Shown here: positions 1-64,000 of the stretch, piece by piece
Position numbering within the stretch: position 1 is the first letter of the stretch
Layout: every line of letters starts with the position of its first letter
Assembly: GCA_001599355.1 (NCBI GenBank)
Contig: BCGQ01000001.1
Location: 871,135 to 935,134 of the forward strand
Direction: 5' to 3'
DNA: 64,000 nucleotides
DNA from: Nakazawaea peltata
Taxonomy: Eukaryota; Ascomycota; Pichiomycetes; Alaninales; Pachysolenaceae
Notes under the pieces: generated by a model
What the model saw: the letters and a program-made list of their open reading frames with translations, nothing else
Told to the model about the DNA's origin: nothing
The model's database searches: none
Made by a program: the position numbers and the translations under genes

Positions 1-1296
1 TTTAGAGTAGTCTCTTAAGTATTTGGATAATTCCATCTCGATTGCACCACCACCGGCGACAACACTGTTGTTTTGGACGGCTCTCTTTACGATCATAATG
101 GCATCATGTAAGGATCTTTCAACTTCAGCAATAACTTGCAGAGCTCCACCTCTTAAGATTAAGGTACATGTTTTCAGCTCAGGACAACCTTTGAATAAAT
201 TGTAACGTTCATTACCGATTTGAACCTCTTCGAAAGAGCTACAAGTACCTAAATGTTCAGGCTTGATATCGGAGGTAGTCGATTGGATAGAACCTCCGAC
301 AGCTTGGATGACTCTTTCAATATCTTCAGCTGCTACTCTACCGGCACAGAAGATATTTCTATCGGCAAAGTATTGAGTCAGTAAATCTCCAATTGGTAAT
401 TTAGACAAGACAATATTAGCTCCAGTGTTAACTATCAGTTCCAATTTATCAAAGATGATTTGCCATTCAGCATCGACAATAGCTTGATAATCGTCGACTT
501 GTTCTATTCTTACCTCGGCATTATCCTTCTCTGCTTTCAATTCTAATTCGACATTAAGTGTTAAGATCTTTGGGTCTGTGAATTTCTTTGGTTGTTGTTC
601 GAATCCAGCGTAGGAGAAAGTCTTCTTAAAAGCGACACCATCAATGAACAAGGAATCTTCCATACCACCACCTGGAACCTTCTTAATACCGATCAAATCT
701 TCATTCAAATCATCTTGATCAAGTGATAAAACTGCATCGACAACCATCTTGGTGAAAAATTCCGAATTATTATTAATCAATTTAGAAGACATCAGAGTTT
801 TAGCACATCTTTCTAACAATTCTCTGAACTTGACTTCATTCAGTTTATCTTTGGAGATTTCAACGGCCAATTCTTTAATTCTTTGAACAGCTAATTGACA
901 CAGTTTAGAATAACCTTTAGTAACGACATGAGAAGATATTCCTTCTTCGATAAAACTCTTGGATTCTTTCAAAAATTCACCAGCCAACAAAGTGACAGAG
1001 GTGGTACCATCACCAACTTCCAGATCTTGAGCACGTGAAATATCGACTAACACTTTAGCAGCAGGATGAACAACGTCGAGTAATTTCAAGATTGTAGCAC
1101 CATCATTGGAGATCGTAGTTCTGCCATTGCCATCGACAATCAATACATCGGATCCCAATGGGCCCAAAGTAGGTTTCAATGTGTCTTGGATAGCGATACA
1201 GGCATTGATATTGGAGATAATTTGTCCTCTTCCTTGAGAGGTGTCGGTTCCCTCTTTCAAGACGACAACTGTAGGTGTTTGACCTCCGAAATTCAT
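1..1296 (-). CDS. CCT7: Chaperonin TRiC/CCT subunit eta (partial, C-terminus outside window)
   Basis: This is the eta subunit of the cytosolic chaperonin CCT, the two-ring ATPase that folds actin, tubulin and WD40 proteins. The ATG at 1296 gives [16 protein letters not shown], the usual CCT7 N-terminus. The frame stays open for 432 codons to the left edge, ending in SKYLRDYSK, so about 120 residues are missing. Visible are TLGPLGSD near residue 40, the phosphate-binding GDGTTSV near residue 95, and CAGRVAAED near residue 315. The CTG at 379-381 lies in GDL-x-TQYFADR, where yeast and human CCT7 have Ala, which supports CTG read as alanine. The upstream neighbour is MDV1 on the same strand; the pair is also adjacent in S. 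cerevisiae (YJL111W/YJL112W). Confidence 0.97.
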
Positions 1297-1628
1297 CTCT
1301 TGATCTTTAGTGGTCTGGTTCTTTGAGGTTTAAAGGTAGCGATTAAACGCCCCCATTAAATCAGTGAGGAAAATTTTTTTTGTCGACGCGTTAAATTGGG
1401 AGGTACACGACGAAATGAGGGAGGTTTGGGGTGCGCGGGAATGGGGGTGCGCGGGAAGTGGGCGGAGAATGGGTGGGAGTAGGCGAAGGATAGGCGGAGG
1501 ATAGGCGGAGAGTAGGCGGAGAATGGGTGGGGAGGAGGTGGAGGAGAAAGAGGAACTAGACCGAGGGGCAGATGAGGACTAGCCCCAGCATAGATGCTAC
1601 AACATTCAAAATAATATTTACAGATTGA
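1297..1628. promoter_or_regulatory. CCT7 upstream region with G-rich repeats
   Basis: This gap holds the CCT7 promoter and the MDV1 3' flank. An A4T8 RRPE-like tract lies at about 1370-1381 and the recurrent motif GTACACGACG at 1403-1412. From about 1418 to 1552 the plus strand is strongly G-rich, with degenerate repeats of the type ATAGGCGGAG. I see no gene here. Confidence 0.5.
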
Positions 1629-3680: not shown

Positions 3681-4329
3681 GATGCACTTGGGATCTTGTT
3701 CAGTGGAGAAGGGGAGATTAACTATGCAATGGAAAGTATGGTGAAACCCTTTTGACAAGCCCTTTTAGATCACAACTAATTGATAGACGATTGAAGAGTG
3801 CAGACTGAAGATCGTGTATCAAATGGTCACGGTTGTACTAATTGGAAGCTCTTCTTGTCTTGTTTCCCCCCTTTTTATTTTTGCCTCAGCTTAGCGATTC
3901 CACTCGCCTTTGGCACAAAAATTTTTTCCCTCTCCCTTTTGCTTTTGATTTTTCTTCGCTTTGATTAGCGGAGCAAGTTTCAGAATTGAAGGGGATGAGG
4001 GTGGGGGCGAGGGGTGAGGGGGAAGGGCGAGAGCATAGCAAGGAACGGATAAGAGGAGATGCATATGGGGTTGAGATGAGAGAAGGGAGTTAAAAGAAGA
4101 GGAAGAGATTATTTTAGTGGTTATTGAATGATAAGGGGGTGATTGCCACTCTGGATTGAAGTTCTTTGAAGGGAAGAGCAAAAAAATATTTACGCGTTTT
4201 CGCGCTAGTGTGAGTAGTTGCAGAAGCGGCTGCGGCTGGGATTTTTCAGCTCCGAGGGAAAGAGAAAAGAGGGAGCGAAAATCAGATGGAGCAGAAGGAG
4301 AGCAGAAGGAGAGCAGAGGAAGGGGTGAA
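3681..4329. other. Divergent intergenic region MDV1/Taspase with G-quadruplex motif
   Basis: This is the shared upstream region of MDV1 (leftward) and the threonine aspartase (rightward). The plus strand at 3991-4027 has six runs of three to five G separated by 1-4 nt. The region up to 4329 is purine-rich (GAGAGAAAAGAGGGAGCG-type sequence). A rightward open frame from a TTG at 4156 joins the aspartase in frame but has no ATG before 4330. Confidence 0.5.
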
Positions 4330-13874: not shown

Positions 13875-15551
13875 TCAGTTTAAGGAGCTATCATTTGACC
13901 TCTCAGACGAATTGACAGTTTCTACAGGATGCTTTGAGTTATCTTGTGCATCTATTGGTAATTCCTGAGGGTCTTCAGGTGTAGAGGCTTTGGAATTTTC
14001 CAGATTTGTAGTGTTATCACCCAGAAGTGATTCCTCATCATTTTTGGTATTTTTGGCATGAGAGTGTTTAACATCATCTGGCCTTAAATCTTTTAAAAAC
14101 ACCGATGCCACAAAGGCGATGATATAAGCTGCCATTGAAAGATACATAATATCTGCATAGTATTCCAGTAACTCAGATTTGTTGGTGATAGTCGTAGCTT
14201 TATCACCAATGATAGAAGTGGTGACAGCAGCTCCTAAAGCCGAACCAAATTGAGACATACTGAGACAGACACCCATGACCAACAGCTGCATGTCCATAGG
14301 AGTTGCAAGCATCACAAGGTTCAAATATCTGATAAAATAAATGTTTGTTCCTGCACCAAATAAGAGAAGACCAGGTAGACAGATTCTCCAATATACAGTA
14401 CTGGAAGTATCTAACCTTGTAAGAACAATTGCTCCCACTGAACCGACTAACAATCCAAACAGACAAACTAACTTAGGAGAGATCAGATCAAACGGAACAA
14501 GAACACCAATGACCGTGAACGTAGTCATAATTATCAAGAGTACAACTGTTCTCACACCAGCTATAATTGGTGAATCTTCCAAAACTGCAGAGAAGAAACC
14601 TAATAAGTTCAACAAACAACCCATGAACCCCATATACAAGAGCAGTGCTAATATTATTATGAGTTTGAAGTTGGTGATACTCCAAGCCGCTTGCGGTATA
14701 ATAAGAATGGTACTCACTCCTCTATTGTTTTTGAAGTAGAATTGTTCCCACAAAAGGAATGCTACAATAGTAAGAGCCCCAACAATAATAGGGATATAAG
14801 CAGAAGGATGGGACCAACTGTTTCCAGCTTCAGTGAAACCGGCAACAAGTAAAAGAGTTCCAGCAATACATAAGAAAGCCCCAAAGAAGTCCAACCTGAG
14901 GGCATCTCTTTTGTTCCCTCTGCCAATTGGCCTCAAGACGAGTAACAGGACCACGAAACAGAATAAGGAAACACCAGCGGAGAACCAACATGCGGCACGA
15001 TACCCAATGGCAGTCATATCAAAAGCGCCTCCGAGGATAGTGCCCAAATTGAAAGAGATAATCATGGATGTGGAAAGGCATCCCAAAGCAATATTCAATG
15101 CCCTTCCTTCGAAGCTATGAGCCACGATAGCAAAGGAAGGTGGAATTGTTGCCGCACCACAAATACCAAGAAAAGCTCTAAATAGAACTAAGACGTAGAT
15201 ATTTTTGACAGCGGCACAGATCAAAGAGAATATACAGAAGAAAAATAGACCCCCAATTAACATTATATCATGGCCGATTAGATCACTGATTTTTCCGGCA
15301 GGAATAATGAAACTAGCATAAGTGACAGAATAAATAGAGACAGTCCAACTTGCTGTTGCATATGTAGACCCAAACCGATTCTGTACGTCCTCCACACTGT
15401 TGAAGAACATTGACACGTTCATGTTATCAATAATCTGTGAGCTCGCCACGACAAGAAAGATGATGACACCATTCTGTAATTTTGAACCTACAGTGGATCT
15501 CAGGAATTCAACACCCCTTTCTACTGGTTTTAAAATAGTTCCTAACGCCAT
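13875..15551 (-). CDS. DHA2-type MFS transporter, array copy 1
   Basis: This is a 558-residue major facilitator of the 14-helix drug:H+ antiporter-2 type. The ATG at 15551 gives MALGTILKPVERGVEFLRSTVG. Visible are ASFIIPAGKISDLIGHD (loop 2-3, MFS motif A-like), FRAFLGICGAATIPPSFAI (helix 4, motif B/C area), GSALGAAVTTSIIGDKA late in the protein, and an acidic Ser/Asn-rich tail. The substrate is unknown; relatives such as Atr1 export aminotriazole and borate, and others carry drugs or ammonium. It is the leftmost of three tandem paralogues and is closest to copy 2, with which it shares a 65-bp identical tract (14254-14318 here). A TATAAATA lies 60 bp upstream. Confidence 0.9.
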   Translation of the reverse strand: MALGTILKPVERGVEFLRSTVGSKLQNGVIIFLVVASSQIIDNMNVSMFFNSVEDVQNRFGSTYATASWTVSIYSVTYASFIIPAGKISDLIGHDIMLIGGLFFFCIFSLICAAVKNIYVLVLFRAFLGICGAATIPPSFAIVAHSFEGRALNIALGCLSTSMIISFNLGTILGGAFDMTAIGYRAACWFSAGVSLFCFVVLLLVLRPIGRGNKRDALRLDFFGAFLCIAGTLLLVAGFTEAGNSWSHPSAYIPIIVGALTIVAFLLWEQFYFKNNRGVSTILIIPQAAWSITNFKLIIILALLLYMGFMGCLLNLLGFFSAVLEDSPIIAGVRTVVLLIIMTTFTVIGVLVPFDLISPKLVCLFGLLVGSVGAIVLTRLDTSSTVYWRICLPGLLLFGAGTNIYFIRYLNLVMLATPMDMQLLVMGVCLSMSQFGSALGAAVTTSIIGDKATTITNKSELLEYYADIMYLSMAAYIIAFVASVFLKDLRPDDVKHSHAKNTKNDEESLLGDNTTNLENSKASTPEDPQELPIDAQDNSKHPVETVNSSERSNDSSLN

Positions 15552-16293
15552 TAGTTAAAGCACTCGCAGTATTCAACTGGGAATCATGAATGGGAGAGGA
15601 CTCATCGGGTTATTTATATTTTAAAGAGGAGGACTAAGAATCAGAAATGTGAAGTCACTTTAGGCTCTCCAAAGGAAGACTCCAGAATATCCACGGCTTA
15701 AACATTGACTAGCTGCAGTTTTATGCATACTTCTACCGTTTTAGGAAGGTGGCTACTGGTAAAATGAGTTTTTCTTCCGTTAACTACGCTAGTTTCGTTA
15801 ATTGCTCACGTATTGTAGATACTTTTCATTAAATGCTAAAAAAAATAAAACGAGGCTAGATAGTAGACAAGAAGAATCAAGTTAAAGCTAGTGAAGTCGG
15901 CCGATTATGGGATTAAAGCCGCGCAAATAATCTAGTCAGCACAAAAGGGGGTTTTCTTGGATCTGGTGCTATTTAACAAAATTCCCCAGCATGTGAATTG
16001 GCCTTCACGACAATCCACGCAAGTTTTACCAGAAATCACAGACGCCAAGACTTGGTATTCCCATAAACTCCGCGACTCCGCTATCCCGACCCATGTCATG
16101 AAATCATAAGGTAGTCCTTGATTATGTTCTTCGGTGATGACGTACTGACTCAGCAGCTTTTAATTTTTCTTTCTGGGCTAAAATAAAACGAGATCTCTCT
16201 TTTAAAATCTATTATAAGAAAAGGGATACATGGTTTGTGAGGAAGCAATTTTATAAAAAATATTAGATGATTAGTTTATTTTAACAGGTGGCT
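15552..16293. promoter_or_regulatory. Promoter region of DHA2 copy 1, duplicated blocks
   Basis: TATAAATA (minus strand) lies at 15611-15618. Two blocks are shared with the copy 2 promoter: 15673-15717 (CCACGGCTTAAAC...TGACTAGCTGCAG) and the pair TCGGCCGA at 15897-15904 plus GATTAAAGCCGCGCA at 15911-15925. A Gcn4-type TGACTCA is at 16146-16152 and TGACGT at 16138-16143. No gene is seen. Confidence 0.6.
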
Positions 16294-17946
16294 TCAGTTC
16301 AAAGAGCTTTCATGTGTCTTCTCACTGGTGTTTAATGTGTCTGGAGTTGCCTTTGAGCCAGCCGGGTCTGATTGGGATACTGGCGACTCTGCATGTGATC
16401 CAGTTTCCTGAGTTTCAGTTTCTTTGGAGGCTACAAGAGATTCCTCATCGGATTTGGTATCAGTCTCATGTTTAACATCATCCGGTTTCAAATTCTTAAG
16501 AAGCAAACACAGAATGAGACTGACGATATATGCGGACATTGGAAGATACATAATTTCGGCATAATATTTCAGTAACTCAGATTTGTCAGTTATAGTTGTA
16601 GCTTTATCACCGATGATAGAAGTGGTGACAGCTGCTCCCAAGGCCGAACCAAACTGGGACATACTGAGACAGACACCCATGACCAACAGCTGCATGTCCA
16701 TAGGAGTTGCAAGCATCACAAGATTTAAGTATCTGACAAAGTAAATGTTAGTTCCGGAACCAAATAAGAGAAGACCAGGGAAGCAAATTCTCCAATAAAT
16801 TGTATGCGATGTACTCAAACGGGTAAGTACAATCAAACCAACTGTTCCTACCAACAAACCAATCAGACAGACCATTTTTGAAGATATCAGATTGAATGGG
16901 ATCAGAACTCCAATCATAGTGCAAATTGTCATGATGACTAAGAGACAAACCGTTCTCACACCAGCAATGATAGGAGAGTCTTCTAATACTTGAGTGAAGA
17001 AGCCAATCAAATTTAACAAACAACCCATGAATCCCAAATATAAGAGCAGGGCTATCAAAGGAATGATCTTGAAATTTGTAATACTCCAAGCTCCTTGAGG
17101 AATAATAAGAATTGTATTTGTACCCCTATTATTCCTGAAATATAATTGTTCCCACAGAAGGAATGCCAAGATAGTGAGGAAACCTACGATAATTGGGATA
17201 TACGCAGAAACATTGGACCAACTGTTTCCAGCTTCGGTGAAACCTGCAACAAGTAAGAGAGCTCCAGCAACGCATAAGAAAGCACCAAAGAAGTCCAACC
17301 TGAGAACATCTCTTTTGTCTCCCCTACTAGTTGGTTTCAAGACAAGTAACAGGAAGATGAAACAAAACAAGGAAACAGCAGCCGAGAACCAACATGCTGC
17401 ACGATAACCGATAGGAGTCATATCAAAAGCTCCTCCAAGGATGGTACCCATGTTGAATGAAATAATAATAATTGTGGAAAGACAACCTAAGGCTATATTT
17501 AAAGCTCTTCCTTCGAAGCTGTGCCCGACAATTGCAAATGAAGGTGGTACTGTTGCTGCTCCACATATACCTTGTAAGGCTCTGAAAAGAACTAAAACGT
17601 AGATATTCTTCACTGCTGCACAAATCACAGAAGCTATTCCAAAGAAAAAAAGACCCCAAGTTAACATGATGTCATGACCGACTATATCACTGATTTTTCC
17701 GGCAGGAATGATGAAGCCAGCGTAAGTGACAGAATAAATAGAGATTGTCCAACTAGCGGTTGCGTATGTAGAGTTGAACTGATCCTGCACATTGTCGACA
17801 CTGTTGAAGAACATTGATACGTTCATATTGTCAATAAGCTGAGAACTGGCAACAATAAGGAAGATGATGAGACCATTCTGTAATTTTGAGCCTACAGAGG
17901 ATCTCAAGAATTCCACACCTCTTTCTACTGGTTTTAAAAAAGACAT
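16294..17946 (-). CDS. DHA2-type MFS transporter, array copy 2
   Basis: This 550-residue transporter is clearly paralogous to copy 1 along its whole length (MSFLKPVERGVEFLRSSVGSKLQNG; FNSTYATASWTISIYS; GHSFEGRALNIALGCLST). It has the same predicted 14 helices and conserved loop motifs. The tail after the last helix is acidic and Ser/Thr-rich (DTKSDEESLVASKETETQE) and differs in sequence from copy 1. The TATAAATA at 18007-18014 is 61 bp upstream of the ATG, the same distance as in copy 1, and blocks of its promoter are copied in front of copy 1. Substrate unknown. Confidence 0.9.
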   Translation of the reverse strand: MSFLKPVERGVEFLRSSVGSKLQNGLIIFLIVASSQLIDNMNVSMFFNSVDNVQDQFNSTYATASWTISIYSVTYAGFIIPAGKISDIVGHDIMLTWGLFFFGIASVICAAVKNIYVLVLFRALQGICGAATVPPSFAIVGHSFEGRALNIALGCLSTIIIISFNMGTILGGAFDMTPIGYRAACWFSAAVSLFCFIFLLLVLKPTSRGDKRDVLRLDFFGAFLCVAGALLLVAGFTEAGNSWSNVSAYIPIIVGFLTILAFLLWEQLYFRNNRGTNTILIIPQGAWSITNFKIIPLIALLLYLGFMGCLLNLIGFFTQVLEDSPIIAGVRTVCLLVIMTICTMIGVLIPFNLISSKMVCLIGLLVGTVGLIVLTRLSTSHTIYWRICFPGLLLFGSGTNIYFVRYLNLVMLATPMDMQLLVMGVCLSMSQFGSALGAAVTTSIIGDKATTITDKSELLKYYAEIMYLPMSAYIVSLILCLLLKNLKPDDVKHETDTKSDEESLVASKETETQETGSHAESPVSQSDPAGSKATPDTLNTSEKTHESSLN

Positions 17947-18741
17947 TATTTAAAGTGTACTAGATGCTTCACCTCAAAATCACAAAGGTCGGAGGATTCA
18001 TTAAATTATTTATAGTTTAGTGATGAGGGCCCGGAAACCAAAACCGGATCATAATGTTACATTTGAGATCACCGTAAGAAGATTCCACAACACCTACGGC
18101 TAAACCGTTTTGACTAACTGCAGTCAAGTTGCATATTTCGACCGTTTTTCGGGGCATATAAAACGAAGTTTGAACCGTCCACGACTTATTTTTTGGCCCT
18201 TGCTCATCGCTTATAGACCTTATCTCCTTAAATTTTTTCCAAAAAATTCCCTTTTGGGCTATGGTGAAACGAGTTCGGGTTATAAGCCAAGCACAACAAA
18301 CTTTAGTTAGTGAAATCGGCCGATTTGACGGATTAAAACCGCGCAGATTAGTACAAAAAATGCACAAGGGGTGTTTTGGACTCAAATTGAGCGTGCCATT
18401 CAATAGAAGAGCAAGGAAGTGTGAATTAAGATCAATGGTAGCCCAGGTGAATTTTGCCTAACAAAAATGGCAGTGGTATTGAAATCTGCGTTAAACCCGC
18501 TGCGGTATCCCCTACCTCGGGTTCGTTATTTGTCCTCCTTTAGAGGCGAAATAGGATAATTCATCCCCATCATTTCCTAGATTAATACGATGTAGTCGTA
18601 AAATTTTAAATTCAATCAAAACTTCACCTGACCCTTATCTACAAGGGACTCTAAGATTCCATCATAAAACAGTCATTAGTAATATTCATTATATGTCTAT
18701 AGCCACCCCTTGAGCTCCATGGGTATGGATATTCCAACTCA
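17947..18741. promoter_or_regulatory. Promoter region of DHA2 copy 2, duplicated blocks
   Basis: TATAAATA (minus strand) lies at 18007-18014. Blocks 18076-18121 and TCGGCCGA 18316-18323 plus GATTAAAACCGCGCA 18331-18345 are related to those in front of copy 1. The region also includes the 3' flank of copy 3. Open frames on both strands here (about 18017-18461) overlap the conserved promoter blocks and are not credible genes. Confidence 0.6.
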
Positions 18742-20325
18742 CTAGGAGATCGATTCTGGTTTATCGACGGGTGTTCCCGAATATTCATTAAGCTCATCCT
18801 TAGAAATGGCCTCTTCATCAGTCACAGAGTCTACAGCATGAGAATGTTTGACATCTTCCGCCTTCAAGTCTTTTACAATCAAACACAAAAGGAAACTGGA
18901 AATGTACGCTGCCATAGCAAGGTACAAAGAATTAGCATAAACATCCAGTAATTCTTGCTTGTTTGTCATGGTGGAAGCCTTGTCACCTATGATTGAAGTC
19001 GTGATCGAAGAGCCCAAAGCTGATCCAAAATTGACCATACTGAGACAAGCAGCCATTACCAACAGTTGCATATTCAAAGGAGTAGCAAGGGTAATGAGAT
19101 TTAAGTATCTCACAAAATAGAAATTTGTACCGGCACCAAATAAGATAAGTCCAGGGAGACAAATTTTCCAGTAGACATTATGTGAATAGTCCAACCTGGT
19201 AAGAACTATGGCTCCGACTGACCCTATCAATAATCCTACTAAACAAATCAACTTTGGTGAGATCAGATTGAATGGGATTATAACTCCAATAGATGTACAG
19301 ATTGTCATGGTGATCAATAGCACAATTGTTCTCAAACCAGAGATCACAGGAGAGTCATTGTAAACGCTGGAGAAGAAACCAACCAATACTAAACAGATAT
19401 TAATGAATCCCATATATAAGAGGGCCGTTATAACAGGCAAGATCTTAAAGTTGGTGATACTCCAAGCTGAATGAGGAATAATAAGAATTGTGTTTTCCCC
19501 TCTTCCATTTCTATAATACAATTGTTCCCACAAAAGAAAAGCAATCAAGACGAGGACTCCCACAACAATAGGGACATATGCGGATGGGTGGTTCCAGCTG
19601 TTACCGGCCTCGGTGAACCCAGCAACAAGCAAAAGAGCTCCAGCAACACATAAGAAACCACCAAAAAAGTCCAATCTTAAGATATCTCTTGGATCTCCAC
19701 GATTTACGGGCTTCAAAATGACCACCAGCAAAATAAAACAGGCAAAGGAAGTTCCAGCTATGAACCAACAAGCAGAACGATATCCTAGAGTTGTCATGTC
19801 AAAAGCTCCACCAATGATAGTTCCGAGATTGTAAGCGAGGACTAAAGTTGTTGAAAGACAACCCAAAGCAACATTTAATGCTCTCCCTTCAAAACTATGG
19901 GCGACAATTGCAAAAGAGGGAGGAACAGTCATTGCACCACAAACTCCTTGGAAAGCTCTAAACAAAATCAAAACATAAAGGTTCTTCACAGCAGCACAGA
20001 TTATAGCGAAAATTCCAAAGAAAAATAACCCCCAAATTAACATAATATCATGGCCGACTATATCACTGATTTTACCAGAGGGTATAATGAAACTGGCATA
20101 AGTGACAGAGTAAACAGATAATGTCCAACTGGCAGTGGCATATGTAGTATTAAATTGGTGCTGTACATCTTCAATACTGTTGAAGAACATAGTGACGTTC
20201 ATATTGTCTACAACTTGAACAAAAGCGACAATCAAAAAAATAATAGGGCCATATTGTAACTTTGAACCAATATTTGAACGTAAATATTCCACCACACTGG
20301 TGACTGGTTTGTACATTGGTGACAT
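18742..20325 (-). CDS. DHA2-type MFS transporter, array copy 3
   Basis: This third tandem paralogue has 527 residues (MSPMYKPVTSVVEYLRSNIG). It aligns with copies 1 and 2 from helix 1 to helix 14 (TTYATASWTLSVYSVTYASF, GHDIMLIWGLFFFGI, FRAFQGVCGAMTVPPSFAI, GSALGSSITTSIIGDKAS) but is the most diverged and has a shorter tail. The likely role is proton-driven export of a small molecule at the plasma or vacuolar membrane; the substrate cannot be read from the sequence. Its promoter has a TATATAAA at 20394-20401 but not the TCGGCCGA block of the other two, so it may be controlled differently. Confidence 0.9.
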   Translation of the reverse strand: MSPMYKPVTSVVEYLRSNIGSKLQYGPIIFLIVAFVQVVDNMNVTMFFNSIEDVQHQFNTTYATASWTLSVYSVTYASFIIPSGKISDIVGHDIMLIWGLFFFGIFAIICAAVKNLYVLILFRAFQGVCGAMTVPPSFAIVAHSFEGRALNVALGCLSTTLVLAYNLGTIIGGAFDMTTLGYRSACWFIAGTSFACFILLVVILKPVNRGDPRDILRLDFFGGFLCVAGALLLVAGFTEAGNSWNHPSAYVPIVVGVLVLIAFLLWEQLYYRNGRGENTILIIPHSAWSITNFKILPVITALLYMGFINICLVLVGFFSSVYNDSPVISGLRTIVLLITMTICTSIGVIIPFNLISPKLICLVGLLIGSVGAIVLTRLDYSHNVYWKICLPGLILFGAGTNFYFVRYLNLITLATPLNMQLLVMAACLSMVNFGSALGSSITTSIIGDKASTMTNKQELLDVYANSLYLAMAAYISSFLLCLIVKDLKAEDVKHSHAVDSVTDEEAISKDELNEYSGTPVDKPESIS

Positions 20326-27404: not shown

Positions 27405-33219
<5,815 letters not shown>

Positions 33220-41646: not shown

Positions 41647-42684
41647 TCATAAATTCAGTTTAATAGCATCGATAACATCCTTGTGTAATTTCTTAGTCGT
41701 GGCAATGATACCTTTACTGTCCAAAGTTCTTCCCTTTCCGAAATCCAATTCGTTACCGTACATATCACTTACTACACCTCCGGCTTCGGAGATCAATACG
41801 TTACCCAGGGCGTGGTCCCAGATTTTCTCTTGGTATGACATTGATTTTGGTAATCTTAAGTAAATTTCGGCATCACCTCTTGCAAGAGCACAATATTTCA
41901 GTTGAGAATCCAATCTTACAGTATGCAGTTCGGCATCTGCAACACCTAAGTGTTCTTTAATCTTACTTTGTAAATCGTGAGACGAATGACCTTTTTCGAC
42001 ACCTTCACAAATCTTCAATTCGGCATCATTAAATCCTAACAGATCACGCATTTGAATCTTGGTAGATGAAGCCAATTCTCCAGTGACTTCTTGAGATAAT
42101 GGTTGATAATAAGCACCCTCACCTTTAATTGCACTATACAAACCACCAACCTCAACGGAAGGCTCACTCAAATGACGAGGTAAATGAGGACAACCAATAA
42201 CTCCCAATTGTACTACACCATCAACAATCAACAGCAAACATACCAGGAACTGATCACCACGGATGAAACCTTTAGTTCCGTCAATAGGATCCAAAGCCCA
42301 AACTCTACCTTTATTTCCACCTTTACTGTTTCCGAGATCAACGGCATCACAAACTTCAGCTCCAGAATTCAACTCACCAATGACATCGGAATGTTTAGAA
42401 TCTTGAGTTTGAACATCCTTAATAACATCCAATACGTTTCCTAACAATCTCAGGTTCTCTTTCAACGTCAGGGAGTCCTCCTCACCGACAATTTCATCGT
42501 GTGGGAAGTTCTTATGAATACTATTTATAATGATGGCCTGGGCGGCGAAATCACCTAAAGTGACAGGAGAGTCATCGGTTTTGATGATGGTATTGGACAG
42601 GATTTGTTTGGAGATTTGTCTAGTCAAGATAGACAGTCTTCTTACTGCCAATTGCAGCACAGCTAACTCTTTCAGGTACATCAT
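41647..42684 (-). CDS. MET22: 3'(2'),5'-bisphosphate nucleotidase (Hal2/Met22)
   Basis: This enzyme hydrolyses 3'-phosphoadenosine 5'-phosphate (PAP) to AMP. That permits sulphate assimilation and protects RNA exonucleases; it is the classic Li+/Na+-sensitive salt-tolerance target. The 345-residue protein has the IMPase-family metal motifs IVGEEDS (about 66), DPIDGTKGF (about 130) and WDHA-x-GNV (about 290). CTG codons at 42244-42246, 42232-42234 and 41806-41808 fall where the family has Ala (QFAVCLALIVDG; WDHAAGNV), among the strongest evidence in the window for CTG as alanine. The ATG at 42684 is followed by a second Met. Confidence 0.95.
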   Translation of the reverse strand: MMYLKELAVLQLAVRRLSILTRQISKQILSNTIIKTDDSPVTLGDFAAQAIIINSIHKNFPHDEIVGEEDSLTLKENLRLLGNVLDVIKDVQTQDSKHSDVIGELNSGAEVCDAVDLGNSKGGNKGRVWALDPIDGTKGFIRGDQFLVCLLLIVDGVVQLGVIGCPHLPRHLSEPSVEVGGLYSAIKGEGAYYQPLSQEVTGELASSTKIQMRDLLGFNDAELKICEGVEKGHSSHDLQSKIKEHLGVADAELHTVRLDSQLKYCALARGDAEIYLRLPKSMSYQEKIWDHALGNVLISEAGGVVSDMYGNELDFGKGRTLDSKGIIATTKKLHKDVIDAIKLNL

Positions 42685-43314: not shown

Positions 43315-45013
43315 ATGGTGTTCAAAGTGAGTTTGATCTCTTTTTTCTTAGGCCAATTCCAATAGGCGTGTAACTAACTGAATTTAGACATTTAAAAGAA
43401 GCAATAGTGGGGCCAATTCCAATAAAAGACCGGTAATTACATCTCCACTGGTGCCACAGAGACAGAAGATTCAACTGTTGTACGATTATGAGAGTCAGGG
43501 AGATATGGAATTGACTTTTTACAAGGGTGATGAATTTTATATCATTAATGAGGCAGATGAGAATTGGTATAATGTTACTGATATGGAGCAAATGAAGGTG
43601 GGAGTTGTTCCAAAGTCGTATTTCAAGATTATTAGTGCCTCATATGTTAGAAAGAGACAAAGTTTGACCACTTTGCACGGTAAAGTATTGTATGATTTCG
43701 AGGCCATGTCCAATCAAGAATTGCAGATCGCCAAGGGTGAATATGTGACTATTTGTGCACATTCCGGGAATGATTGGTTCATTCTGAAGCCTGTATCTAG
43801 GTTAGGAGGACCAGGTTTAGTTCCTGTTTCTTACGTTGGAGTCTTAGATATGTCTCAAGGTAATGCTTCTCAAGGTCATATGAAAGTATTCACTCCACTG
43901 GATATTGAATCTAGTAGATTACCAACAGTTGAACAATGGAATAGAGAACGTGATGAATATAAAAAATCGGCTACTCCAATCAATGGTTCGAATGGAAACA
44001 GTAACAGCTACATTAATGTCAATGAGTCTCCTGTAGCTGCTGGTAACACTTATTCACCAGGTGGATACTCAGCCGTACAACAAAATAATTTGAACAGATC
44101 TGGAACTATGCTGTCTGCAAAGACTAATGCTTCATCTCTTTTAGAATTAGGTGATGTTTACGTGGTCAGACTGTTTATTCCAGAGAAATATTTCACCAAA
44201 GAAAGTGATGGTCGTGGGAAATATTGGTACGTTATTGAATTGACATTCAGTAATGGGCTCAAAAGATTAATAAATAGATGTTATGAGGATTTCTTTGATT
44301 TCCAAGCTCATTTGAAGAAACTTTTCCCAAGAGATGCCAACGAAGATTCAAGAATCTTACCTACAATTCCAGGTCCTTTGGCTAATGTCAGCTCGACAGT
44401 TCTGGACCAAAGATTACATGATTTCAACAATTATCTCTTTGAATTGTTAGATTTACCAGGAAGAATTAGTAGGTGTAGATTTGTTCTTTCATTCTTCGAT
44501 ATCAAGTATTATAATGACCGGAATATTTTGGCCGATCTGGTACCTCCTCTGCAACAGCTGCAATTGCAACAACATAATACCCAGCAACTGATTCAGAGGA
44601 ATACTTCGTCGTCTTCTCAAAGATATCTTTCGCAAAGTCAAAGTAGTCCAAATGGATCGCTGCTGGTCCTGCTGGTTCTGCATTCACTGCCAGTTCAACT
44701 GCAACTGCAAATGCAACTGCCTGTACAACAGCCAGTTCAACAACCTCCTCAACTGCAGACCAGAACTGCTTCTAACCAAGATGAAAGATTTAAATTTTAC
44801 TTCAACGATGAGATTTTCGTACTCAAATTGAACAGGTCCATAACCTTAAAAGAACTTAAGATGAGTTTAACTAAAAGATGTCAATCTGAGAATTTCAGAA
44901 TCCTCTTAGTAGATGATTCTAGTGCCGAATTCGATATAACTTCCGATTCAGATTTACTTAAATGTTTTGATCTTGAGTCGAAGAAGAGAAAGTTGATTAT
45001 TGTTCCGGTATAA
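43315..45013 (+). CDS. BEM1: Polarity scaffold Bem1 (two exons, joined 43315..43326 and 43388..45013)
   Basis: Bem1 links Cdc24, Cdc42 and PAK kinases to build the polarity site. Exon 1 is only four codons (M-V-F-K), then a GTGAGT donor; exon 2 begins T-F-K-R-S-N-S-G. The spliced protein is 545 residues. Domains in order: SH3-1 (about 32-88), SH3-2 (about 104-162), PX (about 255-375, recognisable by LFIPEKYF, GRGKYWYVIEL and the R/Y-rich lipid-binding strand), a Gln-rich linker, and C-terminal PB1 (about 470-545). The CTG at 43475-43477 turns LLYDY into the canonical SH3 ALYDY when read as Ala. Without the intron there is no ATG near the SH3 domain. Confidence 0.93.
43327..43387 (+). other. 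Spliceosomal intron of BEM1 (61 nt)
   Basis: The donor GTGAGT is at 43327-43332, a TAACTAAC branch sequence at 43371-43378, and the acceptor TTTAG ends at 43387. The frame is kept across the junction (phase 0). The branch A to AG distance is about 10 nt. A 14-bp sequence in the intron (GGCCAATTCCAATA, 43351-43364) recurs exactly in exon 2 at 43411-43424, 60 bp away. Confidence 0.88.
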
Positions 45014-45264: not shown

Positions 45265-46911
45265 ATGGCAAAGACAGACGTACACAAACCTACAAAGACA
45301 AAACCCAAGTCTAAAGCTACCAATGCCAAACAGAACCAGATTGTACTGGACACCTCCTTCGATTCGTCCCCATTGAACGATTTCTTGACCCCCTTCAGAC
45401 CAGCTCCAAATCAATGGATCGTTAAGTATATAGTGATCATATTCCTGATCATTATCAGATGCGCTATAGGAAGTGGGGGTTATTCTGGACGCCTGACGCC
45501 TCCTATGTATGGAGATTTTGAACTGCAGAGACATTGGCTTGAGATCACTCAACATATGCCAGTTTCCAAATGGTATTTCTATGACTTACAGTATTGGGGG
45601 CTTGATTATCCTCCCTTGACTCTGTATCATTCGTGGGTGTTGGGTAAAATTGGTACTATTATTAACCCAGAATGGTTTGAATTGGATACTTCACGTGGTA
45701 TAGAATCTCAGGACTTGAAGACCTTCATGCGTTTAACATCTTTATTGTCAGAAGTCCTCGTGCTCTTCCCTCTGGTCTTACGTTATATTAACCATATTAA
45801 AATGGGTAAATCTCCGGTAGGACAAGTGTTGATATTGGGTCTGATTCTCTTCCAACCTTGTTTATTATTGATTGACCATGGTCATTTCCAGTATAATTCC
45901 GTCATGTTGGGTTTCTTCGTCTTGAGTGTCAGCTGTTTATTAGAAGACAACTTTATATTACTGAGCTTTTTCTTTATTATGAGCATTGGTTTTAAACAAA
46001 TGCTGTTATATTATTCACCATTTATATTTGCTTATATCTTGAGTCGTTGTTGCTATTCTGAGGGTTTACAAATTCCTCGTTTGATAGCCGTTGGTGTCAC
46101 CGTAATCTCTAGTATTATTCTCTTACTCTTACCATTCTTGTTACATCCAGACAGAATTTCTTTAGTACAACAGATTTTAGTCAGGATGTTCCCATTTAAT
46201 CGTGGTATATTCGAAGATAAAGTAGCCAACTTTTGGTGTTCTACTAATTTGGTCATCAAATATAAAGATTTATTCACTAATCAGCAATTAACTAGACTTG
46301 CTTTGGTCGCAACAATACTGCTGTTTACTCCTCTGTGTATTACTATCTTCTTGAGACCAAAGAAGGAGATTCTTTTGCTTGGATTTGTAGCCACATCGAT
46401 GTCTTTCTTCTTGTTTAGTTTCCAAGTACATGAAAAATCCATCTTAGTGCCTTTGATGCCGACTCTTTTGTTATTCAACAGATATAACTCTTTGATCTCA
46501 TGGTTCTCGAACTTTGCTCTTTTCAGTATGTACCCTCTTTTAGCCAAAGATGAACTTATTCTTCATTATTGGTGTTCGGGATTACTCTTTAATTGGTTAA
46601 TTGGAAATATGAACTTTGTTTCAAGAGTATTACCAAGCTTTATAATCCCAGGACCTACCTTATCTGAAAAATTGGGAAACTCTTCTACTAAATTACTGCT
46701 TCCAGAGTCAATTTTAGCTAGAATAGTCATTATTGGCTCTTATATCTTAGCAGCAATCATTCATATCGTAGAATTCACTCAAGATCCTCCCCTGAGATAT
46801 CCAGATCTTTGGGTGATTGCCAACACTACCTTATCTTTTGCCGTATTTGGAATCTTCTATTTATGGTGTAATTATGAAATGATAAAATTGGCATTTACTT
46901 CAAACACATAG
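45265..46911 (+). CDS. ALG6: Dolichyl-P-Glc:Man9GlcNAc2-PP-dolichol alpha-1,3-glucosyltransferase
   Basis: Alg6 adds the first glucose to the lipid-linked N-glycan precursor on the luminal side of the ER. The 548-residue protein has about 11-12 membrane helices. The first luminal loop contains PPMYGDFE-x-QRHWLEITQH (catalytic Asp in the GDFE motif) and YWGLDYPPLT-x-YHS, both diagnostic of Alg6 as against Alg8. CTG codons at 45523-45525 and 45622-45624 occupy the two x positions, which are Ala in other Alg6 proteins. The last 12 bp overlap the 3' end of the convergent GH17 gene. Confidence 0.95.
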   Translation: MAKTDVHKPTKTKPKSKATNAKQNQIVLDTSFDSSPLNDFLTPFRPAPNQWIVKYIVIIFLIIIRCAIGSGGYSGRLTPPMYGDFELQRHWLEITQHMPVSKWYFYDLQYWGLDYPPLTLYHSWVLGKIGTIINPEWFELDTSRGIESQDLKTFMRLTSLLSEVLVLFPLVLRYINHIKMGKSPVGQVLILGLILFQPCLLLIDHGHFQYNSVMLGFFVLSVSCLLEDNFILLSFFFIMSIGFKQMLLYYSPFIFAYILSRCCYSEGLQIPRLIAVGVTVISSIILLLLPFLLHPDRISLVQQILVRMFPFNRGIFEDKVANFWCSTNLVIKYKDLFTNQQLTRLALVATILLFTPLCITIFLRPKKEILLLGFVATSMSFFLFSFQVHEKSILVPLMPTLLLFNRYNSLISWFSNFALFSMYPLLAKDELILHYWCSGLLFNWLIGNMNFVSRVLPSFIIPGPTLSEKLGNSSTKLLLPESILARIVIIGSYILAAIIHIVEFTQDPPLRYPDLWVIANTTLSFAVFGIFYLWCNYEMIKLAFTSNT

Positions 46912-49178: not shown

Positions 49179-49180
49179 CG

Positions 49181-54670: not shown

Positions 54671-55591
54671 ATGAGTACTTCCACGTGTAGATTCTACGAG
54701 AACAAGTACCCTGAGGTAGATGAGGTGGTCATGGTAAATGTCCAGCAAATCGCTGAGATGGGTGCTTACGTAAAGCTTTTAGAGTACGATAACATCGAAG
54801 GAATGGTTTTATTGTCAGAATTGTCGAGACGTCGTATCAGATCGATCCAAAAATTGATCAGAGTTGGTAAGAACGAGGTTGTTGTGGTATTAAGAGTCGA
54901 CAAGGAGAAAGGTTACATTGATTTGTCCAAGAGAAGAGTCAGTGCAGAAGATATTGCCAAATGTGAGGAAAGATATAACAAATCCAAGCTGGTTCATTCG
55001 ATCTTAAGACACTGCGCTGAGAAATTCTCTGTTCCATTAGAGACATTGTACCAAAGTGTAGGGTGGCCATTATCTAGAAAGTATGGACATGCCTATGATG
55101 CATTCAAGATCTCGATCACCGATAGTTCAGTATTTGAAGAGATCGAGGCACCTAATCTGGAAGTATTGGAAGAGTTGAAGCTCTATATTTCCAGAAGATT
55201 GACCCCACAACTGATTAAATGTAGAGCCGATATCGAGGTTACCTGTTTCAGTTATGAAGGTATCGATGCGATTAAAGATGTATTAAGAGAGCTGGAGAAG
55301 TTGAGTAATGAAACCAATCAAATCAAGGCCAAGTTGGTCGCCGCCCCATTATATGTATTGACCACCCAATCTTTAGACAAACTGCAAGGTTTGGCTTTAT
55401 TGGAGCAACTGATCACTTTAATAACAGAGACCATTGCTACAAAACGTGGTAATTGTAACGTTGTGATGGCTCCTAAGCTGGTCACTGCTACAGAGGATCT
55501 GGAATTGCAACTGTTGATGGAGAGAAAGGAAAATGAGGCTAGACAAGTCAGTGGTGATGAGGGAAGTGATAGTGAATTTGAAGATGAGTAG
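54671..55591 (+). CDS. SUI2: Translation initiation factor eIF2 alpha subunit
   Basis: This is the alpha subunit of eIF2, which delivers initiator Met-tRNA to the 40S subunit. The 306-residue protein has an S1 domain (about 17-88), a helical domain (about 90-180) and an alpha/beta domain (about 185-280), ending in an acidic tail GDEGSDSEFEDE. The Gcn2 target is Ser52 by codon count (Ser51 of the mature protein) in LLSELSRRRIRS, with the KGYIDLS recognition motif intact. CTG codons at 55211, 55409 and 55511 match Ala in RLTPQA, SQA and LEALL of other eIF2alpha proteins. Next to MHO1, as in S. cerevisiae (YJR007W/YJR008W). Confidence 0.97.
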   Translation: MSTSTCRFYENKYPEVDEVVMVNVQQIAEMGAYVKLLEYDNIEGMVLLSELSRRRIRSIQKLIRVGKNEVVVVLRVDKEKGYIDLSKRRVSAEDIAKCEERYNKSKLVHSILRHCAEKFSVPLETLYQSVGWPLSRKYGHAYDAFKISITDSSVFEEIEAPNLEVLEELKLYISRRLTPQLIKCRADIEVTCFSYEGIDAIKDVLRELEKLSNETNQIKAKLVAAPLYVLTTQSLDKLQGLALLEQLITLITETIATKRGNCNVVMAPKLVTATEDLELQLLMERKENEARQVSGDEGSDSEFEDE

Positions 55592-57251: not shown

Positions 57252-59297
57252 ATGAGCGACAATAAAATCTTTAGCAGGTCTAAACTGTCCGAATTACTCC
57301 ATGAATTGGATCACGTGGACAAGAAGTCGAAAAACTCGCTTCTGAGAAAGAAAATCGTATTGAAAAAAATAACCGCCAACATCATCCTAGGTAATAATGA
57401 GGTGCTGGCGCTCTTTCCTCATATGGTGAAATTGTACCAGGAACCCGGTATTGATTTGGAGCTGAAGAAGATGATTTGTATGTACTTCACGACTTACGCG
57501 CCCCTGAGACCTCCTCAATTACCGGAGGTCATGGACATATTACGTCAAGAGTTTCAAAGCCGTGATGCTACAGAGACACAAGTATTACTGTTGAGGACGT
57601 TATCGTCGATCAATTTCCAATTGGAAGAGACGGCCAATGCTGTGTATTTCATATTGGCTCCGAATAAGAACGATTCATGGCCATTGGAAGTGAGGGAGAA
57701 GGCTTGTTTTGCCGTGGCCAAGATCTTTGAATTCGATCCAAAGCTTCTGGGTGAGAAAGATTTACTCAAATTACTCAACGAAAAGTTATATGATCCTAGT
57801 GTTGTTATAGTGACGGCACTGTTACTGCTGTTGGGGAACATTATTGAACGGAATCCTAAATTACAATTGAGAATTAGTTATGATCATGCTCTTAATTTGT
57901 TGGATAAAATCTCAAAATGTAATGAATGGGCTGTGGTTTATATTTTGAATTCATTGATGTCATTTATTCCACAATCCAACGAGGAACTGTTACTGATCAT
58001 CGATAAGGTATTACCTGTATTACAACATGAGAATTCTAGTGTGGTTTTAAACCTGTTGAAAGTGATCATGTATTGCTGCAACTATGCTATTAATCCTCAA
58101 GATGTGATCCCAACATTGTCGAAAAGATTGGGTAATCTGTTAGTTTCGATGCTTTCTAAACCTGCTGAGATCCAATTCTTAGTATTGAGAAACGTCATTT
58201 TGTTACTTTTAAGTAAACCAAGATTGATAGAATTTGATGTCAAGATGTTCTTTTGTCAATATGATGATCCTATCTATGTGAAAGATACCAAATTAGAGAT
58301 CATTTATTTATTGGCAGACGATCAAAATATAGATGTCGTATTAGGGGAGTTGAAAGAGTATGCTACAGATGTCGATGTTCAAATGTCCAGGAAACTGGTC
58401 CGTGCTATTGGTAATTTACTGGTGAAATTGGATTGTTATTCAAAATGTCTTGCAGTTTTATCGGAACTTTTCCAAAGTGAGATTTCATATATCATTCAAG
58501 AGGGTGTTATCGTATTAAAGAACATCTTACGTAAGCATCAACATGGATTGGATGATTTGATACGGATTATTGTCGATCATGTTGATATGATTGATGAGCC
58601 GGAATCGAAGCAAAGTTTGATATGGATTATAGGTAATTATTGTCAAATAATTAAGGATCTGTATCTGTTGTTGGATCTCTTGGGATTCAATTTGGAAGAA
58701 GAACCAACCGACTTCCAATTACTGTATTTGACAGCAGTTGTAAAGTTCTATATAACAGATCCATCTTCGGAACAGGCTGCTGATTTATGTGTTAGACACC
58801 TCAAATGGGCAACCGAATATAGTCATAATCCAGATGTTCGTGAGCGTGGATTCTTTTATTGGAGATTGATATCACTGAATGATCTTGACATGCTGACCTC
58901 TGTCATTCAAGCGAAATTGCCTGTAATTTCTACCGAGAACGAGAAGTTGGATAGATCAATTTTAGAAGAATTGGAATTGAATATTGGTTCTTTACTGTCG
59001 ATATATTTGAAACCAGTTTCTCTGGTATTTAGATTACTGCGTGTCAGGGGTCTTCCGGCTAGTCCGGCTTTACAAAATACAGCAGTTTATTCGGAAAAGC
59101 CTAAAAGAACACACCAACCTGAGGCAGCTTCTGCTCCTACTTCAACTTTACCAACTCCAATGATGGAATCTCATGACACTTTTGAACCATTGAGAAACGA
59201 TTTTGACAAATTAAGCACCAAATCTCGTGCACCATCATCTGGAGTCAAACTTGGACGGAAATTATCACTTAGTTTTAAGAAGAAGACGGAGTTATAA
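57252..59297 (+). CDS. APL1: AP-2 complex beta-type large subunit
   Basis: This is a beta-adaptin trunk of a clathrin adaptor. The 681-residue protein is one HEAT/armadillo solenoid: SKNSLLRKKIVLKKITANIILGN, LELKKMICMYFTTYA, REKACFAVAKIFEF, NEWAVVYILNSLMSF, QYDDPIYVKDTKLEIIYLLAD, QSLIWIIGNYCQ, and DVRERGFFYWRLIS. There is no clathrin-box hinge or ear domain, as in S. cerevisiae Apl1. The neighbourhood SUI2-MHO1-APL1 mirrors S. cerevisiae YJR005W-YJR008W and decides for APL1 over APL2. CTG codons at 57825-57830 match the AA of the VAALSEI motif. Confidence 0.9.
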   Translation: MSDNKIFSRSKLSELLHELDHVDKKSKNSLLRKKIVLKKITANIILGNNEVLALFPHMVKLYQEPGIDLELKKMICMYFTTYAPLRPPQLPEVMDILRQEFQSRDATETQVLLLRTLSSINFQLEETANAVYFILAPNKNDSWPLEVREKACFAVAKIFEFDPKLLGEKDLLKLLNEKLYDPSVVIVTALLLLLGNIIERNPKLQLRISYDHALNLLDKISKCNEWAVVYILNSLMSFIPQSNEELLLIIDKVLPVLQHENSSVVLNLLKVIMYCCNYAINPQDVIPTLSKRLGNLLVSMLSKPAEIQFLVLRNVILLLLSKPRLIEFDVKMFFCQYDDPIYVKDTKLEIIYLLADDQNIDVVLGELKEYATDVDVQMSRKLVRAIGNLLVKLDCYSKCLAVLSELFQSEISYIIQEGVIVLKNILRKHQHGLDDLIRIIVDHVDMIDEPESKQSLIWIIGNYCQIIKDLYLLLDLLGFNLEEEPTDFQLLYLTAVVKFYITDPSSEQAADLCVRHLKWATEYSHNPDVRERGFFYWRLISLNDLDMLTSVIQAKLPVISTENEKLDRSILEELELNIGSLLSIYLKPVSLVFRLLRVRGLPASPALQNTAVYSEKPKRTHQPEAASAPTSTLPTPMMESHDTFEPLRNDFDKLSTKSRAPSSGVKLGRKLSLSFKKKTEL

Positions 59298-60827: not shown

Positions 60828-62118
60828 CGCTGTCTCGCCAGATCCAATCTGTAGCAAGGACAAAATAACTAGGGAAAAAAAAGGTGTGACATTTGCTGAT
60901 CGAATCTGACGGACGGAAAAACTCGAGATTTCATGCACTCATAAATTCGTAAATTGCTATGACAAAGGTGGGGTGTTATTTTCCAGAGGCTCACGTTGCT
61001 TTTTGGGAATGTCTTGCCCGTACCCCGATTAGGAGATAGCTGGGCAACATTGTTGTAAGGGGGCCGGATGGATTTTGTCTCAGATTTTGATTACCGGATG
61101 GTGGTTGGCGGTACTGGTGAGGGATTTATTACATTTTATCTCGATAGGTACCATTTTGGGTCATAAGCGTGATGTTGTTGAGTAAATCGTTATACCTCAA
61201 AAGAGCTAAAAATAGCATCTTTGTGCCTGACCTTAGCTTTTAAAAGAGAAAAACTTTCCAATTTGGGAAAGTGGATAAAGAATTTGATTGTCCTCAACAG
61301 AGTCTTACTCAAAAGCTTATCATGTCGATCCTGGCCGTCGAATCCACCAAACATGGTTATTTGTTATCTTGTATCTTCATTTTCTAACCTCTCCTTTCCC
61401 CTTAGTATTGTGATCACAGTCACCGAGTATTATTGTTTATTACCGAAATTACAACTCCGGCGAAATGCCGAGAATTGACCGAGCCAAAAAAATTACCGAT
61501 CAAATCTGGAATAACCGAGGCCCAAATAAAAAAAAAAAACGACAAGCTGGGTGATTACGTCGTAAATAGCTAAAATGAATCTATGACTTGTTTAGATGTC
61601 AAGGATCTATGTTTATTGTCTCAGATATCAAATTCTCGTAGTTAGTTAATACTGACCCCTTCTCTACCACATTTTTCTTCATCAGGCTCAGATCTTGTCT
61701 CAGTCTCAGAACCACACAACGAGAAAAAATACTCCATCTCAAAAATCTCCCAATCTCAATATAACACCACCAACATATAAAATAAGAAATCCAGCACTCA
61801 GATACGAAAATCCCATCGGCCTAAACTAATCCCGACTAACCGGTTCACCGACCAAACTTCCAACCACCCCCTCACCATCACCCCTCTCTGGGCAAACCTT
61901 CACACCTTTACGTAGCTCGCGCATAAAGCCGCAGATTTTTTGCAAGGAAAAAGCTCCAGAAAGAGACACCGACAGAGAGAAGCAGAAAAAAAAAATAAAC
62001 CCCAGCAAATTGTTCCCTTCAGCGGTTAGAACATTCAAGCAGGTTGAGTCTCTTGTTTATAAGCAAATATAATAGTGGTGGTCTAGATTCTTAGCCACTG
62101 ACTTACGACCATTTCAAT
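60828..62118. other. Long divergent intergenic region
   Basis: About 1.3 kb between the kinase and the zinc-cluster gene. It contains poly-A at 61528-61540, an A-rich tract near 61988-61997 and AT-rich stretches. Small frames at 61221-61478 and 61826-62038 have no support. No RNA gene was recognised. Confidence 0.4.
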
Positions 62119-64000
62119 ATGCTGGGTTCGGCGTCAATAGCATCGTCTTCGACATCCGAGGAGACTCAGACTGGGAACGCGGCTCCCGTCAAGATGATCA
62201 ACAATAGTCAAGCCAGTTTTATCAGCCATAAGCGCCCTGTTGCAAAGAGAGCCTGTTTGGCTTGTAGAGAGACGAAGATAAAGTGTGATGGAGAGGCTCA
62301 ACGTAGCCAAGATTCCACCGATCCAACAGCGCCTAAGATTTGCTCAAATTGTGTCTATTTTGGAACTGAATGTGTGTTTGTACGAAGCAATAGAGGTGGC
62401 AGAAGACGTAAACGTTCGGACAGTATAGCTGATTCGACTGTTTCATCGACGATTTCGAGTTTACTGCATGCTACGAGCTTGAATAATCCTGGCCCCAAGC
62501 TACTTAAATCAGAGCCTGGAACCTCGGCTTCCTCCATATTATCGGCTTCTTCTAGTACTTCAGGTTCCGATATGAGGAACTCACATTCATTGAATTACAG
62601 CAGTCCAACAAGAAACCAGCTCGATTATTTGAGAAGGAAATCTAACTCGTACACTCCAGGTCGTAGATCACCTTCTTTAGAGTCGCAAAGTACTCTTTCG
62701 TACTATAGAGATTATCGTGGTGAATATTATGATGGAGAAAGACGCCATTCCCATAAATTAGATGATAATGGAGGACCTTACCTGCTGTCGGAAAGAAGTG
62801 AATCTTCTGGATTTGGGTCTCATGGTCCAAATATACCACCTGGAGGTCCCCCAGGACCAGGAGGACCCGGAGGACCTGGTGGTCCAATGGGACATTATGG
62901 ACATTATGGTGGACCACACCATATGCCTCACCATCCTCCTCACCCTGGTCCTCCTCCTGGCCCACCGGGATCATATTTCCGTCCTCCTCATCCATTTGGA
63001 CCTCCACCTCCAGGACCACCTCCACCACCTCCTCCTTACGGTCCATGGGGTCATCCTCCACCTCCTCCACCTCCTCATCCGATGCATCATTGGCATAGAA
63101 GGAGAAGATGGCTGCTGTATCATCTGCAACAAGAACAACTGTGGAATAATTATCACTTACCACCTCCTCAACTGCTTTTATCTGGAATCAGTGGGGAGAA
63201 ATCGGAAGCTGGGGGTGAATCTTCTTCACTGGCTCCATCTACACGCCTTCCTGATGTAGAGGCCTCGATCACGGGGACTCTGTCAACCTCAAAAATAGAA
63301 TTAAATCGGTCAAATTCAAAAGATTCGACTGCTGACAGAAAGAATATCCATGCCACTACAGCTATGGACACCTCAACTCATTCCATCGATGCCAATACTT
63401 CCACCAATATACTGCCAGTTCTGTCAGATGACCATTCACTGAAATTAGAATCGATTGACTCCTCTTTCAGGGAATATAATCTTCCAGGTACTAGGATTTG
63501 TGAGCTGTTCTTTGATCTATATTATCGGTACATTCATCCAAGTTTCCCGATTTTACCAGAAAAAGCTCAGTTCATCAGTACTTTGGAGACCAGATCTTCC
63601 GCCTCTCTTCTTCACGCTATGTTTTCCATGGTTTGTCGTTTAGTCCCCTCTGCAGTTGTCTCTTCACCTACTTTGAGAGATCAGAATTATTGGTATCCAT
63701 TTGTAGACCAATACTGGTCAAGTCTAGACGATGTTTCTTCTGTCTCTACTTCTTTACTTATGTTTCAATACCAGTTGGTCGAAGGAAACTATGCTCTGCT
63801 GAAGTCGTATTTAGAAAAGGCTTACGATATAGTGGAAATCAATGACTGGCAGACAATGTTGAAGTATAGAGGACTGATGTTCTATGAAAAGTTTTATTCC
63901 ATTAGTACACCAAGAATGATCTCCGATAGATTCCAAAAGAGTCGATTATTATGGCTTATTTGGGAGAGTCATTTGAAGTTGAAATTATTGATGTCCGAAC
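62119..64000 (+). CDS. Zn2Cys6 transcription factor (partial, C-terminus outside window)
   Basis: This is a fungal binuclear zinc-cluster regulator. The ATG at 62119 opens a frame of 627 codons to the right edge. The DNA-binding domain at about residues 46-95 has CLACRETKIKC (CX2CX6C), a longer than usual loop, then CSNCVYFGTEC (CX2CX6C) and a basic RSNRGGRRRKR stretch. A very Gly/Pro/His-rich segment follows (about 230-330, PPGGPPGPGGPGGPGG and HHPPHP-like runs). From about 455 on, LPGTRICELFFDLYYRYIHPSFPILPEKAQF marks the start of the fungal-specific regulatory domain. I cannot name the orthologue; the target genes are unknown. Confidence 0.92.
   Translation, partial: MLGSASIASSSTSEETQTGNAAPVKMINNSQASFISHKRPVAKRACLACRETKIKCDGEAQRSQDSTDPTAPKICSNCVYFGTECVFVRSNRGGRRRKRSDSIADSTVSSTISSLLHATSLNNPGPKLLKSEPGTSASSILSASSSTSGSDMRNSHSLNYSSPTRNQLDYLRRKSNSYTPGRRSPSLESQSTLSYYRDYRGEYYDGERRHSHKLDDNGGPYLLSERSESSGFGSHGPNIPPGGPPGPGGPGGPGGPMGHYGHYGGPHHMPHHPPHPGPPPGPPGSYFRPPHPFGPPPPGPPPPPPPYGPWGHPPPPPPPHPMHHWHRRRRWLLYHLQQEQLWNNYHLPPPQLLLSGISGEKSEAGGESSSLAPSTRLPDVEASITGTLSTSKIELNRSNSKDSTADRKNIHATTAMDTSTHSIDANTSTNILPVLSDDHSLKLESIDSSFREYNLPGTRICELFFDLYYRYIHPSFPILPEKAQFISTLETRSSASLLHAMFSMVCRLVPSAVVSSPTLRDQNYWYPFVDQYWSSLDDVSSVSTSLLMFQYQLVEGNYALLKSYLEKAYDIVEINDWQTMLKYRGLMFYEKFYSISTPRMISDRFQKSRLLWLIWESHLKLKLLMSE

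Follow-up and report, generated by a model that had tools for sequence, protein, structure and literature searches.

Which amino acid is inserted at CUG codons in the genome that holds this locus? The question is raised by a 64,000-nucleotide stretch of DNA (G000:C1:871135-935134; hereafter the window), part of a genome of 11.63 Mb in 11 contigs. A first-pass annotation had found CTG codons at alanine positions of conserved proteins in the window and had proposed that CUG is read as alanine (CUG-Ala code). Comparison with homologues and solved structures, together with a search for the corresponding transfer RNA (tRNA), leads us to the same reading: the nuclear genome almost certainly uses a CUG-Ala code.

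CTG codons stand at alanine positions

The window holds 33 open reading frames of at least 150 amino acids. We used 31 of them, which total 16200 codons, 343 of these being CTG (about 21 per 1000 codons); frames 24826-25524 and 62762-63259 were left out as they overlap longer ones. Homologue columns were analysed for three proteins: an APL1-like beta subunit of an AP complex (57252-59297, plus strand; 24 CTG), ALG6 (45265-46911, plus strand; 14 CTG) and GCN2 (27405-32480, minus strand; 21 CTG). CTG was masked as X in the queries, and the 120 homologues listed out of 375, 4278 and 834, respectively, were aligned, with each sequence weighted down according to how many others exceeded 70% identity to it. 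The homologue sets include yeasts with a reassigned CUG, none of which was taken out. This left 57 usable CTG sites (24 of 24 in the APL1-like protein, 14 of 14 in ALG6 and 19 of 21 in GCN2).

The mean alanine frequency was 0.362 at the 57 CTG sites, 0.360 at 120 sites with the alanine codons GCN and 0.021 at 314 sites with other leucine codons. CTG columns resemble alanine-codon columns, not those of other leucine codons. Summed over the 57 sites, the scores were +65.4 bits for alanine, +0.5 for serine and -109.0 for leucine; the APL1-like protein gave +42.7, +12.7 and -52.9 bits and ALG6 +28.1, -12.3 and -18.0 bits. Alanine was the modal residue at 27 sites, serine at 7, leucine at 2 and other residues at 21. 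Where a single residue reached a frequency of at least 0.6 (20 sites), it was alanine at 18, serine at one and leucine at one; at GCN2 site 1011 alanine reached 0.98. Among 20000 random sets of 57 non-CTG sites, none contained 18 alanine-dominated sites (maximum 8), nor did any of 20000 random sets of leucine-codon sites (maximum 1). Applied to the 60 other sense codons as a control, this scoring recovered the standard residue for 57 of them, the misses being CAC (4 sites), CGA (7) and CGC (1).

CTG residues were also aligned to chains in the Protein Data Bank (PDB) for SUI2 (eIF2 alpha; 54671-55591, plus strand), MET22 (41647-42684, minus strand), partial CCT7 (1-1296, minus strand) and ALG6, which is thus counted in both data sets, and for an HSP70 gene outside the window, L141. 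The records give molecule names, and we take the chains for the four window proteins to be those of Saccharomyces cerevisiae; L141 was compared with a mitochondrial Stress-70 chain, whose species is likewise our assumption. Alanine stood opposite 41 of the 67 aligned CTG residues, serine opposite 4 and leucine opposite 2; three further CTG fell in gaps, and one in MET22 and one in ALG6 lay beyond the alignments. In the controls, GCN codons were opposite alanine at 66 of 106 positions and other leucine codons opposite leucine at 138 of 208. Against the S. cerevisiae chains, six of the nine CTG in SUI2 faced alanine and none leucine or serine, five of the eight in CCT7 faced alanine, one serine and none leucine, and the ten aligned out of 13 in MET22 included six opposite alanine, one opposite leucine and one opposite serine.

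Every codon cited in the first-pass annotation proved to be an in-frame CTG. Alanine positions were confirmed for those in CCT7 (379-381; alanine in the S. cerevisiae chain and in four other CCT eta chains), MET22 (42232, 42244 and 41806) and SUI2 (55211, 55409 and 55511), both alanine in S. cerevisiae, ALG6 (45523-45525 and 45622-45624; weighted alanine frequency 1.00 and 0.92) and the APL1-like gene (57825-57830; 0.76 and 0.69). Tabulated over six proteins, five in the window and one outside, the residues opposite CTG favour alanine; a predominance of leucine or serine was looked for and not seen.

Paralogues within the genome provide a further comparison. In the HSP70 gene L141, CTG occupies the four alanine positions of the motif EPTAAALAYG, at which the paralogues L137-L140 have GCN codons. 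Across eight HSP70 paralogues, CTG faces alanine codons in 141 of 452 cells, similar to the 1000 of 2678 cells in which alanine codons face other alanine codons.

An alanine-type tRNA with a CAG anticodon

A CAG-anticodon tRNA with the alanine identity pair G3:U70, for which the first-pass annotation had suggested searching the genome, is present. The combined pattern of a CAG anticodon and a T loop occurs at 89 places in the genome, all of which were scanned with ARAGORN (2 + 30 + 57); the scan was repeated with introns of up to 300 bases at the 30 and with long introns at the 57. The sole CAG tRNA among them lies outside the window at C4:81426-81498 (L039 227-299). A similarity search with this tRNA returned a single match, itself, as for a single-copy gene. 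It has a 5-base variable loop, the acceptor pairs G1:C72, G2:C71, G3:U70 and C4:G69, a T6-T67 mismatch and A73, all of them features that Ala(AGC) and Ala(TGC) genes of this genome have in common with it, and a run of T follows the gene. G3:U70 is the main determinant for alanyl-tRNA synthetase (AlaRS). The Rfam tRNA model scores the CAG tRNA at 50.9 bits; ARAGORN labels it Leu, from the anticodon alone.

By their common D arm, the genome has at least four Ala(AGC) and at least two Ala(TGC) genes. A class II D-arm pattern gave 16 matches, comprising the leucine tRNAs CAA (five, read by eye), UAA (two), AAG (one) and UAG (one) and the serine tRNAs UGA (one), AGA (three), GCU (two) and CGA (one). 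No CAG anticodon occurs among these 16 leucine- and serine-type matches, although a divergent gene could escape such a pattern search; the leucine-type D arm with three mismatches allowed was found at 8 places, all within the 16. No tRNA was found within the window, over which Rfam gave nothing at gathering scores. In a census with RF00005, the CAG gene was not among the 63 of 608 candidates scored (46 of the 63 inspected).

The tRNA-Leu(UAG) gene lies at C4:804518-804725 (L145 219-426) on the minus strand and contains a 120-base intron, as called by ARAGORN with long introns allowed. This intron counts as long, given that the 134-318 nt introns of tRNA-Leu(CAG) in other yeasts are the largest canonical ones described for any tRNA (PMC5951914). 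In L145, a microRNA and a tmRNA family of Rfam matched weakly, below gathering scores; we attribute this to chance or to parts of the tRNA itself. Elsewhere on the contig, at L096 55-149 (C4:431871-432106), ARAGORN calls an intron-bearing Val(gac); by eye we take this gene for tRNA-Phe(GAA), interrupted by a short intron.

Phylogenetic placement

Among the matches listed, the best one had 56% identity for the APL1-like protein, 67% for ALG6 and 62% for GCN2. Pachysolen tannophilus was the nearest species-labelled match of GCN2 (54% identity) and, by score, the second of ALG6 (55%), behind Komagataella, in each case among the 120 listed; its label was absent from the 120 listed for the APL1-like protein, and no sequence labelled Nakazawaea or Peterozyma occurred among the matches listed. 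In a one-gene tree of GCN2 with 25 rows (the window plus 24 homologues taken from the 120), the window, P. tannophilus and the best-matching relative form one group with support of 100/100. This group joins Komagataella, Ogataea and similar species, presumably a Pichiales-type assemblage, at 99/98. The tree backs the suggested placement near Pachysolen. Identities of 55% in ALG6 and 54% in GCN2 show that the window organism is not P. tannophilus itself.

In the best-matching relatives, ALG6 and APL1 show leucine at several positions where the family has alanine (for instance ALG6 sites 120 and 233 and APL1 sites 113, 190, 382 and 582), which would fit the translation of a CUG-Ala relative under the standard code. 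NCBI taxonomy places Pachysolen, Nakazawaea and Peterozyma in the order Alaninales. These three genera make up the Ala clade, in which a tRNA-Ala gene gave rise to the CAG tRNA (PMC5951914), and the change from CTG to alanine is treated as a property of Alaninales (PMC11540330). The window genome resembles that clade in having CUG at alanine positions, an alanine-type CAG tRNA and no tRNA-Leu(CAG) that we could find, as well as in its phylogenetic neighbourhood. As the code has been described for Alaninales, this would be a further genome with an already known code; the five CUG-Ala genomes were excluded from the analysis in PMC6701816.

Decoding of CUG and alternative readings

Because CTG stands at alanine sites, the CAG tRNA is of alanine type, no leucine- or serine-type CAG gene was found and the window groups with Pachysolen, the most likely explanation is that tRNA-Ala(CAG) puts alanine at CUG. 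AlaRS, blind to the anticodon, would charge this tRNA through its alanine-type acceptor (G3:U70, A73), and the tRNA would pair exactly with CUG. The ancestral tRNA-Leu(CAG) has apparently been lost, and leucine would be read by the anticodons CAA, UAA, AAG and UAG. Charging by AlaRS, expression of the CAG tRNA and the amino acid actually inserted are here predicted from sequence. Neither AlaRS nor seryl-tRNA synthetase requires particular anticodon bases (PMC5951914).

Several observations weigh against translation as alanine. GCN2 scored -5.3 bits for alanine, +0.1 for serine and -38.1 for leucine, and by itself rejects leucine without choosing alanine; many of its CTGs are at variable sites. 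Some sites are not alanine-like, for example GCN2 1226 (leucine 0.77), ALG6 478 (leucine 0.57), APL 71 (isoleucine 0.59) and APL 296 (serine 0.67). Three tandem, closely related paralogues of the MFS transporter family (13875-20325, minus strand; 9, 9 and 4 CTG) have several columns in which CTG is opposite leucine codons: in 43 pair cells, CTG faces CTG in 28, a leucine codon in 8 and an alanine codon in 3. Under a CUG-Ala code, the 8 cells with leucine codons would be leucine/alanine exchanges, mostly one base apart. Over its full length the CAG tRNA is 0.70 identical to alanine tRNAs and 0.71 to each of Val(UAC) and Leu(AAG), and in the D arm and anticodon stem it differs less from Val(UAC) or Gln(UUG) than from alanine tRNAs (8 versus 16 differences). 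Ala(AGC) is the best match to its acceptor, variable loop and T arm, with 7 differences versus 12 and 18; this comparison by arms left out Val(AAC). The CAG tRNA may be of mixed origin or may have evolved fast.

The alternative that survives best, improbable as we consider it, is that CUG is read mainly as alanine with a small share of leucine, contributed by wobble of tRNA-Leu(UAG) or by partial leucylation of the CAG tRNA. This tRNA carries A35, G37 and A73, which are determinants for leucyl-tRNA synthetase (LeuRS), tRNA-Leu(UAG) is present, and the MFS paralogues interchange CTG with leucine codons. In Candida albicans, G37 has been tied to about 3% leucine mischarging of tRNA-Ser(CAG) (PMC5951914). 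However, leucine is in no clear excess at CTG compared with alanine codons, being modal at 2 of 57 versus 3 of 120 sites, with a mean frequency of 0.057 versus 0.037. The more specific proposal that CUG is polysemous, with measurable leucine from tRNA-Leu(UAG) or from LeuRS acting on A35, G37 and A73 and accepted at hydrophobic positions, for instance in the MFS transporters, appears doubtful at best.

That CTG keeps its standard meaning, leucine, and that the alanine matches are selected examples is highly implausible. The leucine-like sites (GCN2 1226, ALG6 478 and those of the MFS paralogues) would agree with it, as would a tRNA-Leu(UAG) that could wobble to CUG. Against this stand the -109 bits for leucine over the 57 CTG sites, a mean leucine frequency far from the 0.575 at other leucine codons, the mere 2 of 67 CTG residues opposite leucine in PDB chains, and the leucine-type CAG tRNA that was looked for by pattern and not found. 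Serine, the reading of the Candida clade (Ser1) and of the clade of Ascoidea and Saccharomycopsis (Ser2), is hardly tenable either: it is the second-best residue at CTG (+0.5 bits; modal at 7 of 57 sites), but its mean frequency there (0.133) is at the level of alanine codons (0.128) and not of serine codons (0.361), the CAG tRNA lacks the long variable arm of the serine type, and the GCN2 tree separates the window from Candida-clade species and Ascoidea.

The CUG-Ala reading shares with Ser1 and Ser2 the reassignment of the same codon and its decoding by a new CAG tRNA. It differs from them in that the new tRNA is of alanine and not serine type, serine being rejected by the alignments. Most Ser2 species retain a tRNA-Leu(CAG) gene (PMC5951914), whereas none was found here.

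CUG usage

If CTG is alanine, it makes up 343 of the 1127 alanine codons in the window (30%), with a range of 6% to 59% per gene. CUG would then be a common alanine codon and not a residual one, and the reassignment therefore looks well settled. The available parts of PMC11540330, PMC6701816, PMC4986446 and PMC8629427 gave no figure for CUG usage in the Ala clade.

Usage varies among the HSP70 genes. L137 and L140, which we take to be SSA-like and SSB-like, have no CTG beside 65 and 62 GCN codons, respectively, and L138, presumably a second SSA-like gene, has 6 beside 55; the mitochondrial-type L141 (687 codons) has 28 beside 40. The eight HSP70 genes hint that CTG may be avoided where expression is high, which would fit a single-copy CAG tRNA gene.

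Standard-code annotation of this genome gives the wrong residue at CTG, and a modified code is required; the earlier statement that standard-code translations err at every CTG holds as regards the codon's main meaning. Reassignment of sense codons in nuclear genomes is very rare, and every additional CUG-Ala genome helps in dating the change and in testing by what route the old tRNA disappeared. The DNA polymerase of virus-like elements (PF03175) had no match in the genome; as none turned up in the control genomes either, this says nothing about the killer-element hypothesis.

A CTG upstream of the BEM1-like frame

The annotation had also cited a CTG at 43475-43477 (plus strand), which is an in-frame codon of the first BEM1-like SH3 motif and lies upstream of the listed open reading frame 43505-45013; this position was read from the DNA alone. 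The BEM1-like gene may have a short first exon starting at the ATG at 43315, with a GT splice-site-like sequence at 43327 and an intron before the SH3 motif.

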